Positions 22,576 to 49,517 of a stretch of DNA of 64,000 nt are shown here, one piece after another. A model generated the notes under the pieces. That model saw only the letters and a program-made list of their open reading frames with translations. It ran no database searches and had not been told where the DNA came from. Where the stretch lies: the NCBI GenBank assembly GCA_025210525.1, contig JAOARP010000048.1, positions 1-64,000 of the forward strand. The letters are read 5' to 3'. The translations under genes were made by a program, and so were the position numbers. This DNA is from Marinisporobacter sp. (GTDB taxonomy: Bacteria > Bacillota > Clostridia > Peptostreptococcales > Thermotaleaceae). Positions within the stretch are counted from its first letter, which is position 1, and every line of letters begins with the position of its first letter.

Positions 22576-22766
22576 TTGTGTCTTAGAGGTTGCGATGGAT
22601 CAATAGTACTATGCAGGAAGGATAGGAAACTGATGAGAGCATAGGGAAGGGAACATCGCCGAAATGTATAGGTTTACCTGAATCTATATGTTGGGGTCAT
22701 ATTGAATAAATATGAAACTGTCATTGATGAATTACCCAGTTTATCAGTGAGGCGCTATTTCACACA
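22576..22766 (+). promoter_or_regulatory. Lysine riboswitch (L box)
   Basis: The conserved blocks appear in order: TTAGAGGTTGCGA, AATAGTACTATGC, AGGGAAGGGAACATCGCCGAA, TGTTGGGGTCATATTGAAT, AAACTGTCATTGATGAA and GAGGCGCTATTT. The ends TGTG and CACA close the P1 helix. Lysine binding is expected to favour the downstream terminator and switch off aspartate kinase. Confidence 0.94.
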
Positions 22767-45325: not shown

Positions 45326-45823
45326 ATGCCCGTTGAAGTTGGAAAAGTTGTAGAGGGCACTGTAACTGGCATTACAAACTTTGGTGCTTTTGTTCAACTG
45401 CCAGAAGGAAAAACAGGTTTATGCCACATATCAGAAGTAGCCGATGATTATGTAAAAGACATTAGTACGTATCTTAAGGAGCAACAAAAGGTAAAGGTGA
45501 AGATTATCGCTATTGATCCGAAAGGAAAAATTAGCCTTTCGATTAGGAAAGCACAACCGAAACCTCCTAAAAGAGAATCTAAACCAGAAGCCTCTAAGTG
45601 GAAGAAAAATGATAAAGACAGACAAGGATTTAGAGAAAAACAAGGATTTAGAGAAAAACAAGGGTTTAGAGAAAAACAAGGATTTAAAGAAAGACAACCA
45701 TCTTTTGAAGATAAATTAGCACAATTTCTAAAGGATAGTGAAGAAAAACAGCAACAGGTAAAAAAATATACGAAGGATTCTAGACGAGGAAATGGATTCA
45801 ATAGAAAAGGAGTCGCTAGATAA
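45326..45823 (+). CDS. yabR: S1-domain RNA-binding protein (YabR-like)
   Basis: A 165-aa protein. The S1 domain occupies residues 1-75 (PVEVGKVVEGTVTGITNFGAF, GLCHISEVADDYVKD). It is followed by a basic tail with four near-identical copies of QGFREK and a C-terminal acidic/basic stretch. The S1 domain resembles polynucleotide phosphorylase; the family is associated with ribosomes. RBS AAAGGAGGAAGTTTAATTT. Confidence 0.92.
   Translation: MPVEVGKVVEGTVTGITNFGAFVQLPEGKTGLCHISEVADDYVKDISTYLKEQQKVKVKIIAIDPKGKISLSIRKAQPKPPKRESKPEASKWKKNDKDRQGFREKQGFREKQGFREKQGFKERQPSFEDKLAQFLKDSEEKQQQVKKYTKDSRRGNGFNRKGVAR
45623..45694 (+). repeat. 18-bp tandem repeat inside yabR, four copies
   Basis: CAAGGATTTAGAGAAAAA occurs at 45623, 45641 and (one change) 45659, and a diverged copy at 45677. 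The period is in frame and encodes QGFREK. It could expand or contract by slippage without frameshift. Confidence 0.9.
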
Positions 45824-46830: not shown

Positions 46831-47031
46831 TTTGCATTATATGCTTTGCTTGAATGAATTATACTAATTTTTTATCGATAAAGTATCACCCATATCGGCA
46901 AAGTTTACCAGTAAAAGCCTCTATGTTTTTAGGATAAAGTAAAAATGGTAGGGTAACTTAGATTATATTTATGAAAATTTGTAAAAATCCATCATGGACT
47001 GTCTGAAAATTCTTGATGTTGAATCAGCCAA

Positions 47032-47065
47032 CTTGACAAATCTTTTGAACACTCATTGATATAAT
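47032..47065 (+). promoter_or_regulatory. Spo0A-type promoter of spoIIE
   Basis: TTGACA (47033-47038) and TATAAT (47060-47065) are 21 bp apart, not 17. The reverse strand of 47032-47040 reads TTTGTCAAG, one base from the Spo0A box TTTGTCRAA, and overlaps the -35. In Bacillus the spoIIE and spoIIG promoters share this unusual spacing and Spo0A activation. Confidence 0.75.
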
Positions 47066-47097
47066 TTTTTTAACAATAAGAAATGGGTGGTGTTAAA

Positions 47098-49491
47098 ATG
47101 CTAGATAAAATAAATATTATCCCTTACAAAAGAGAATATAATGGACAAGTACAGGGATATGTAGCAGAAAGGAAAAAAATAGGCAGTTTTGTATCTAAGA
47201 ATACCCTGATCCTTTTGACTATATCTGTATTACTAGGAAGAGCAAGTATTCTAGAAGGACTTGCCCCCTTTGGAATAGCCTTTTATACATCTTTGTTGAC
47301 TAGGGATAAGAAGTATTCATATATGGGATTATTTGTATTATTAGGGATGTTTACCATGGATGCCAATGTGGCTAAATATAGCATTGCATTGGCATTATCT
47401 TTTATTGTGTTTGGTGTAATAGGAGATAAAATACGATTTAAAACTTTATCGACAGCAGCTATAGCAAGTCTGATTATGTTTGTAGCAGGAATTATTTACA
47501 TGCTAGCTACAGAAATTTATATGTACGATGTAGTGATGGAAGGATTCGAATCAATCGTTGTTTTTGTTTTTATTTACATATTATCTTATGCAGTACCTAT
47601 TATTATGCAAAGAACAAATAGAAAAATATTATCAAATGAAGAGTTGATATGTATAGCCATAGGGACAGCTGTTATTGTATCAGGTTTAGCTGATATAGCT
47701 ATAGGCTCCTTCAGAATAGAAAATATATTTGGCTTATTACTAACATTAATATTTGCCTATCATGGAGGAGCTAGTATTGGAGCAAGTGTGGGAATTACCA
47801 TTGGGATCATTACAAGCATGTCAAGTGTTGGGACACCTATGGTTGTTAGTATATATGGATTTTCAGGTTTACTTGCTGGCATATTTAAAGATTTAGGGAA
47901 AAAAGGATCCGTTATAGGAATGATTCTCGGTAATGCAATTCTTACTTTTTATATTAATGGATCTACGGAGGTATTAGTACAGCTTGAAGAAATTATAGCA
48001 AGTTTTGTTGTTTTTATACTTATGCCAAAATCCATGATGAATTATATGGAGAAGTTTGTAAATGCTAATGAGTGTGAAGTAGATCAAACACGTAGTGAAC
48101 GGATTAAGGAAATGGTACATGTTAGATTAAAGGAATATGCAAAAGCATTTTCTGAATTGGCTGTAACTTATGGAAATATTGCAGAGAAAAAAAGAGTGAT
48201 TGATCAAAGCGATATGGCAAATATAGTAGATGAGGTAGTAGAAAAAGCTTGTAAAAATTGTGGCATGTGTAGAAGCTGTTGGCATAATAATTTTTATGGT
48301 ACTTATAATGATGTAATAGATGTAATTACCTACTTAGAGTCTTATGGAGAAATAAAAACAGAAAAAATTCCTGAAGTATTGAAAAAGAGGTGTATCAAGC
48401 TCAATTATTTAATGGATGTAATACAAAGTCGTTTTGAAGTTTATAGAGTTCATTACGAATGGCAGAGAAAGCTATTTGAAAGTAGACAATTGGTAGCAGA
48501 ACAATTTGATGGTGTATCTCATATCATTGATGATTTAGCTAAAGGAATAAACATGAAAATGGATTTTAGAACAGAAGTTGAAGACGCTTTGTATGTAGCC
48601 TTTGATAAAGAAGGGATTCCTATTGATAAGATTACAGTATTCGAGAAAGAAAATAAAAAATTTGAGATTGCAATAGAAAAAAGATGTTGTTTTAATAGAA
48701 AGCAATGTGATACACGAATAGCACCTATTGTAGCTAAGACGATAGGAAGAGAAGTTGTTAGAAAGCCTAAGTTTTGTAAAGCTAATGAAGATACGGGCAC
48801 TTGTTCATTCACGTTGATTGAAGCAGAAAAATATGGAGTGGGAACAGGCTTTTCTAGGGTATCGAAGGATGATAGAGGAATTTGTGGAGACAGCTATTCT
48901 TTTATTGATTTAGCTGATGGTAAGTACATGATGGCGCTGAGTGATGGAATGGGGTCGGGAGAAAGAGCTGCTAAAGAAAGCCAAGCTACTATAGCTATAT
49001 TAGAACAACTGATGGAAGCTGGGTTTGAAAAAAATGTGGCTATAAAAACAATTAATTCCATTCTTGTTTTAAAATCCTCTGAAGAGACCTTTTCAACAAT
49101 GGATTTATCCATAGTTGATTTGTATACAGGAAAAGTAGAATTTGTAAAGATTGGTGCGGCATCTAGCTTTATTAAAAGAGCAAATGGAGGAGTAGAAGCA
49201 ATAAGATCTACCTCTCTTCCAATAGGAATCCTTAATAATATAGACATTGAAAGCTTTGGTCAAAAATTAAATAATGGAGATTTTATAGTGATGATGTCTG
49301 ATGGTGTATTAGATGCAGATACAGATATAGATGAAAAAGAAAAATGGGTTATAGGTGCTCTTGAAAAATTGGATAGTAAAAATCCTCAATTTATTGCAGA
49401 TGAGCTTTTAGATATGGCTATAAAAAAATATGGAAACCAGGTGAAGGACGACATGACTGTGATGGTTTCAAAAATATGGGAAAGACGATAA
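47098..49491 (+). CDS. spoIIE: Stage II sporulation protein E (PP2C phosphatase)
   Basis: A 797-aa membrane phosphatase that dephosphorylates SpoIIAA and so releases sigma-F in the forespore. Residues about 35-300 have ten hydrophobic helices. A central domain follows with the cysteine cluster CKNCGMCRSCW near 383. The C-terminal PP2C domain carries GDSYSFIDLADGKYMMALSDGMGSGERAAKES, read here as separate GDSYSF and SDGMGSG parts, plus MMSDGVLDADTD. The start at 47098 follows GGGTGGTGTT. Confidence 0.95.
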   Translation: MLDKINIIPYKREYNGQVQGYVAERKKIGSFVSKNTLILLTISVLLGRASILEGLAPFGIAFYTSLLTRDKKYSYMGLFVLLGMFTMDANVAKYSIALALSFIVFGVIGDKIRFKTLSTAAIASLIMFVAGIIYMLATEIYMYDVVMEGFESIVVFVFIYILSYAVPIIMQRTNRKILSNEELICIAIGTAVIVSGLADIAIGSFRIENIFGLLLTLIFAYHGGASIGASVGITIGIITSMSSVGTPMVVSIYGFSGLLAGIFKDLGKKGSVIGMILGNAILTFYINGSTEVLVQLEEIIASFVVFILMPKSMMNYMEKFVNANECEVDQTRSERIKEMVHVRLKEYAKAFSELAVTYGNIAEKKRVIDQSDMANIVDEVVEKACKNCGMCRSCWHNNFYGTYNDVIDVITYLESYGEIKTEKIPEVLKKRCIKLNYLMDVIQSRFEVYRVHYEWQRKLFESRQLVAEQFDGVSHIIDDLAKGINMKMDFRTEVEDALYVAFDKEGIPIDKITVFEKENKKFEIAIEKRCCFNRKQCDTRIAPIVAKTIGREVVRKPKFCKANEDTGTCSFTLIEAEKYGVGTGFSRVSKDDRGICGDSYSFIDLADGKYMMALSDGMGSGERAAKESQATIAILEQLMEAGFEKNVAIKTINSILVLKSSEETFSTMDLSIVDLYTGKVEFVKIGAASSFIKRANGGVEAIRSTSLPIGILNNIDIESFGQKLNNGDFIVMMSDGVLDADTDIDEKEKWVIGALEKLDSKNPQFIADELLDMAIKKYGNQVKDDMTVMVSKIWERR

Positions 49492-49517
49492 GGGCCTAAG
49501 AAGGCTCTTTTCTTTTT
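49490..49517 (+). terminator. Terminator after spoIIE
   Basis: AGGGCCT pairs with AGGCTCT (one G-T) and is followed by TTTCTTTTT. Confidence 0.7.

Follow-up and report, generated by a model that had tools for sequence, protein, structure and literature searches.

The spoIIE gene in the stretch of Marinisporobacter sp. DNA analysed here (64,000 nucleotides; hereafter, the window) is very probably transcribed from a Spo0A-activated, σA-dependent promoter, as judged by comparison of spoIIE upstream sequences. The two hexamers of this promoter match 12/12 consensus bases and are separated by a 21-bp spacer. Features of spoIIE/spoIIG-type Spo0A promoters are present: an early sporulation gene (spoIIE, TIGR02865) downstream, a 21-bp spacer (21–22 bp in the class), a putative box over the -35 and a further putative box upstream. 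The initial annotation had placed a promoter with a 21-bp spacer at 47032–47065, with a Spo0A box on the opposite strand over the -35. TTGACA-N21-TATAAT is indeed found, at 47033–47065, such that the end was correct and the start was one base early. The promoter and the reverse box both stand; a putative forward box at 47000 had been omitted, as had the TGn that precedes the -10. The elements, in window positions, are as follows.

46978–46987, + strand: possible third, weak Spo0A box TTTGTAAAAA, with 2 mismatches; its TGT, at 46980, is 53 bp before the -35
47000–47011, + strand: putative upstream forward Spo0A box TGTCTGAAAATT; TGTC to the -35 start is 33 bp
47031–47040, − strand: putative reverse Spo0A box TTTGTCAAGT over the -35, with 2 mismatches to TTTGTCGAAW; [T/C]GACAAA is conserved across families
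47033–47038, + strand: -35-like hexamer TTGACA, from the sequence
47037–47042, + strand: hexamer CAAATC, at the normal 17-bp spacing from the -10; presumed docking slot of repositioned σA region 4
47039–47059, + strand: 21-bp spacer, with a conserved A/T flank upstream, a core without conserved bases, and TGn at 47057–47059
47060–47065, + strand: -10 hexamer TATAAT, extended by TG at 47057–47058; the spacer ends in TGA, and the extended -10, TGATATAAT, spans 47057–47065
47072, + strand: predicted transcription start (A), placed by its offset from the -10, at which A is the most frequent base (56% of 148 promoters)
47085–47092, + strand: likely ribosome-binding site GGGTGGTG; GGTGGTG is also found in many relatives
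47098–49491, + strand: spoIIE, 797 aa, TIGR02865

The gene scores 721.1 bits with TIGR02865 (cut-off 490.8), and SpoIIE of a relative, Marinisporobacter sp. McD2.5, is 92% identical. The genome holding the window comprises 4.69 Mb in 66 contigs. The start codon is likely the ATG at 47098 rather than that at 47083 in the ORF list, because the upstream ATG is absent in some relatives. Neighbouring genes encode or comprise yabP, yabQ, a weak FtsL/DivIC-like match, an S1-domain protein, an exopolyphosphatase-like protein, a VWA protein, a PrkT-like kinase, tilS and ftsH; most of these are presumably the genes usual around spoIIE. A terminator-like hairpin at the spoIIE stop codon (49490–49509; 1.2 expected in shuffles) would part spoIIE from the VWA and kinase genes. 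Two patterns for a σH-like motif gave no match in the 220 bases up to the spoIIE start codon. Elsewhere in the window, the gene for the S1-domain protein contains an 18-bp tandem repeat in four copies (45622–45697), and a lysine riboswitch is located at 22576–22765 (112 bits).

Conservation of the spacing upstream of spoIIE

Is 21 bp a spacing that this genome favours? Among the 90 exact TTGACA/TATAAT pairs in the genome, spacing peaks at 17 bp (41 pairs), and the four pairs at 21 bp are at background level. Hence, 21 bp is not a favoured spacing, and the promoter is more than a chance match because of its position, with 32 bases between TATAAT and the likely start of spoIIE, and because of its conservation there.

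Conservation was assessed in 193 upstream regions representing 86 families: 27 from relatives, 106 at the class level and 60 from the phylum. The relatives are L005–L035 without L021 and L030, whose contigs stop short of the promoter, L034, whose gene is fragmented, and L035, which duplicates L006. The class set began as 110 loci or regions, from which four were removed (L059, L064 and L068, whose genomes were already among the relatives, and L130, which has only 38 bases); it is limited to genomes over the TIGR02865 cut-off and is thus the top-scoring part (112/391 genomes), with G286, G269 and G085 left out. For the phylum set, 97/199 genomes were over the cut-off, and 60 places were hand-picked to cover a range of families; L213, which is among them, scores below the cut-off. 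Two of the spoIIE genes come from a single genome, G271. A script or inspection by eye supplied a guess for some start codons, and that of L033 is uncertain.

With at most one mismatch per hexamer, a 21-bp pair is present in 148/193 upstreams and 64/86 families; a few of the 148 (L158, L159 and L169, 340–422 bases before the match start) are probably chance matches. At the class level, the pair occurs in 107/133 upstreams (32/40 families), and the mean for dinucleotide-preserving shuffles is 5.2. A 17-bp pair occurs in 3 of these 133 upstreams, and other spacings between 8 and 33 bp occur in 2 to 23. In the 60 upstreams at the phylum level, the spacing is 21 bp in 41 (32/46 families), 22 bp in 10 and 16 bp in 11. 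A -10-like hexamer is also located 16 bp from the same -35 in 11/148 promoters, and normal spacing is possible in those. The 21-bp pair is missing from 45/193 upstreams, nine of which have no pair at 19–23 bp even in a relaxed search.

A search blind to the -10, requiring TGTC and then N[TC]GACA 31–34 bp on, identified 142/193 upstreams from 54 families. A TATAAT-like hexamer is located at 21 bp in 127 of these (50 families) and at 22 bp in seven, and the hexamer at 21 bp is weaker in the other eight. When each family is represented by a single promoter, the seven positions of the spacer core hold 0.032 bits, as compared with a small-sample bias of 0.034. By this comparison, the sequence of the spacer has drifted freely and its length has not. 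The deep conservation asserted in the initial annotation is thus borne out across genomes.

Several individual cases are worth describing. In L125, L129 and L134 (family f31), both boxes are in place and the -10 at 21 bp is TAATAT, not TATAAT. The two spoIIE genes of G271 (L082 and L100) are both full-length (704.4 and 684.9 bits); one has CCGACA and the other TTGACA, both in the 21-bp register. In four genomes of the genus, the pattern TGACAAN{17,18}TGNTATAAT is found at spoIIE in 4/4, plus one site in G003. Other exact TTGACA-N21-TATAAT sites of the window's genome (L001, L003 and L004) were judged unrelated to Spo0A. L001 has no clear gene directly behind it; L003 and L004 have a TATACT at about normal spacing, by eye, and are flanked by TTGGCATTTG and CAAATGCCAA. 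These operator-like flanks (TTGGCATTTG ... CAAATGCCAA; around base 1501; G000:C46:100156 and G000:C66:113101) surround two promoters: a transporter permease lies behind one of them, and its leader resembles a cobalamin riboswitch by eye; behind the other lies, by eye, an Mrp-like ATPase gene.

Putative Spo0A boxes and the bases kept over the -35

In the window, TGTCTGAAA is located at 47000, 33 bp before the -35, and TGTAAAAA is located 53 bp before it. TGTC is found 32, 33 and 34 bp before the -35 hexamer in 31, 86 and 3 of the 148 promoters, respectively, where shuffles preserving base composition only have a mean of ~0.4 per distance. A forward TGTC at 32–34 bp is thus present in 120/148 promoters and 49/64 families. 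There are smaller peaks at 53–54 bp (17/148) and 72 bp (9/148), and TGTAAAA at the place of the possible third box is kept in most of the f1 relatives listed. The number of boxes is not useful as evidence by itself: the window contains 220 matches to TTTGTCGAAW with at most two mismatches, only a slight excess over shuffles (183.5, sd 14.5), and TTTGTCAAGT is no closer to that motif than 219 other places in the window. TTTGTCAAGT had been described at the outset as a near-perfect Spo0A box on the opposite strand. Its place over the -35 is conserved, but it does not count as a separate observation: TGTCAA of the reverse box is the reverse complement of TTGACA, so the box and the perfect -35 share bases and are not independent.

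What is conserved over the -35? Across the 148 promoters, it is TGACA and the following AA, and not the first T. Mismatches to TTGACA number 73 at T1, 12 at T2, 3 at G3 and none from A4 to A6. For 31 one-mismatch -35s among the 17-bp promoters listed from the window's genome (100 of 261 places), the corresponding numbers at positions 1–6 are 3, 2, 6, 2, 11 and 7. The patterns differ with a Fisher p of 4e-18, or 2e-12 with one promoter per family, where the 148 promoters had been selected for no more than one mismatch per hexamer and the control is from one genome. AA follows the hexamer in 96/148 promoters, as compared with 8/41 exact 17-bp promoters among the places listed. In 14 other upstreams, the hexamer at 21 or 22 bp is NCGACA; this makes a weaker -35 but brings back the TGTCG of the box core, of which the AA half shows only weak conservation. 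Judged on these alignments, the mismatch pattern is a better fit to a Spo0A box than to a -35. From this we infer that the -35 region is constrained mainly by Spo0A binding, and that in the window, with its perfect TTGACA, the box and -35 readings coincide.

A C is found 6 bp before the -35 start (position 47027 in the window) in 103/148 promoters, with a linker background of 21%. The invariant C of GACA lies exactly 10 bp away from it, and the window has a G at 47027. This conserved C could be part of a degenerate tandem Spo0A half-site, which the window would lack.

Alternative explanations and the proposed activation mechanism

The -10 of the window is extended by TGn, and TGATATAAT alone might recruit σA, with TTGACA being minor and control by Spo0A being modest. 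TGn is found in the 21-bp-pair promoters of families f1 (14/14) and f51 (16/16), and in 84/148 promoters overall, with about 76–77/107 at the class level (the choice of pair differs between scripts) and 8/41 beyond. However, it is missing from 64/148, including all five f32, all six f36 and all five f63 promoters and 33/41 at the phylum level, and the 21-bp spacing is kept in these. Moreover, a fixed spacer of free sequence is unexpected if the -35 region is irrelevant. We consider an extended -10 promoter of this kind improbable; on this distribution, TGn is a lineage trait laid on a conserved frame. A chance match, with the real promoter located elsewhere, for example TTAACA-N18-TAAAAT at 47070–47099, would be consistent with the background level of exact 21-bp pairs in the genome, and the 18-bp candidate fits 10/12 bases. 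Yet that candidate overlaps the start codon and is present in 2/27 relatives, whereas the 21-bp pair is conserved before spoIIE, making this explanation hardly credible.

Could the paired TGTC and GACA be the site of another regulator with the same geometry? The putative Spo0A boxes are predicted from sequence, and the one over the -35 does not fully match the TGTCGAA core. Nonetheless, several phylum-level promoters have TGTCGAAA as the forward box, and Spo0A is a known regulator of spoIIE. In the available part of PMC3485338, C. difficile Spo0A-DBD binds DNA upstream of spoIIAA, spoIIE and spoIIGA with low affinity, the core being TGTCGAA; an excerpt of PMC12090719 names spoIIG and spoIIE as σA-dependent genes of the Spo0A regulon. 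We regard a regulator other than Spo0A as very improbable.

Activation by Spo0A at an over-long spacer, the mode proposed in the initial annotation, is supported by the spacing, by the place of the box and by conservation, and it remains our preferred reading. The proposed mechanism is that of B. subtilis spoIIE and spoIIG, carried over to this promoter. The good -10 and the -35-like hexamer, 21 bp apart, would be too far from each other for σA to grip both. Since the hexamers are ~4 bp too far apart for polymerase alone, the promoter would be nearly silent without Spo0A, and hence during growth. When sporulation begins, phosphorylated Spo0A would occupy both the forward box at 47000 and the reverse box that covers the -35. 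Contact between Spo0A and σA region 4 would then allow polymerase to use the -10 while region 4 rests close to the 17-bp slot, which is ~4 bp downstream of the first T of TTGACA. The excerpt of PMC4168254 cites the observation that Spo0A binding amid competitor DNA needs polymerase.

Spo0A is encoded in the genome (421.8 bits to TIGR02875), and its DNA-recognition segment (21 residues) differs at one residue from 1lq1_A. The C-terminal 29 residues of SigA region 4 are nearly identical to 7ckq_F. There is no change at the residues matching positions 356 and 359 of 7ckq_F, which we take to be where B. subtilis SigA touches Spo0A. The genome's spoIIGA has ATGACA-N21-TATAAT, with an upstream motif unlike that of spoIIE. 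A 21-bp pair is present in 14 and a 22-bp pair in two of 30 class-level spoIIGA upstreams, among which that of L245 extends over only 22 bases.

Known systems, methylation and the age of the control

The promoter is like that of B. subtilis spoIIE in its gene, σA hexamers, Spo0A boxes and 21-bp spacing. York et al. reportedly described this spacing for B. subtilis spoIIE in 1992, and Guzman is said to have stated 21-bp spacing in 1988. The spoIIE promoter of L154, which appears Bacilli-like by eye from the first residues of the protein, is TTGACA-N21-TATAAT and lacks the TGn that the window has. B. subtilis spoIIG, the promoter reportedly studied by Schyns (1997) and Seredick (2007) and for which Kumar and Moran are said to have proposed σ repositioning, is alike in its over-long spacer, its boxes at and upstream of the -35, and activation via σA region 4. 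It differs in the gene and in its 22-bp spacing; spoIIGA of the window's genome has 21 bp. The match to the Bacillus spoIIE and spoIIG spacing that had been claimed as exact holds for the 21 bp reported for spoIIE; the spacing reported for spoIIG is 22 bp.

Spo0A likewise targets C. difficile spoIIE, where a putative box is found next to the -35 (PMC13395437, in part). According to the same excerpt, three CAAAAA sites are located within 160 bp upstream of the spoIIE start, of which Me3 partially overlaps a putative Spo0A motif near the -35; methylation of Me3 raises spoIIE expression, with no detected change in Spo0A affinity (PMC13395437). Unlike C. difficile spoIIE, the window promoter has no CAAAAA in the 160-bp stretch. 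L131 (family f4, from the window's order) has ATGACA-N21-TACAAT and exactly three CAAAAA in the 160 bases before the predicted start, the last being the 17-bp slot. This locus is probably from C. difficile or a close relative, because the three CAAAAA match the description in the excerpt of PMC13395437. L133, also of family f4, has two CAAAAA sites, one of them in the 17-bp slot. The slot is CAAAAA in 19/148 promoters from 13 families, and this word alone is therefore not specific to C. difficile.

We tentatively propose a joint reading of these observations, which we regard as possible though doubtful. There would be a rigid phylum-wide grammar, consisting of a forward TGTC box, 33 bp, a reverse box [T/C]GACAAA, 21 bp and TATAAT. 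The “-35” would be mainly a Spo0A half-site, σA would dock 4 bp downstream, and methylation would act at that docking site; the slot CAAAAA (CamA motif) of the C. difficile-like locus is apparently Me3. If this is true, CamA methylation affects docking of the repositioned σ region 4 and not Spo0A affinity, which fits because the available part of PMC13395437 reports no appreciable change in Spo0A binding. The comparison of spoIIE promoters itself provides a map, position by position, for a question left by that work: how methylation beside the -35 raises spoIIE transcription.

This kind of promoter is known, and the over-long spacer was previously described for single promoters. The phylum-wide depth, the fixed phasing of the boxes and the mismatch argument go further. 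Within the open literature, as covered by titles and the starts of abstracts and with few subscription papers, we recognised no report of the conservation of the 21-bp spacing, the phasing or the mismatch argument. Spacer length is kept, with its sequence drifting, in 64/86 families and with fixed phasing to a second Spo0A box. The comparison suggests that obligatory activator control of the forespore-development switch is old among spore formers.
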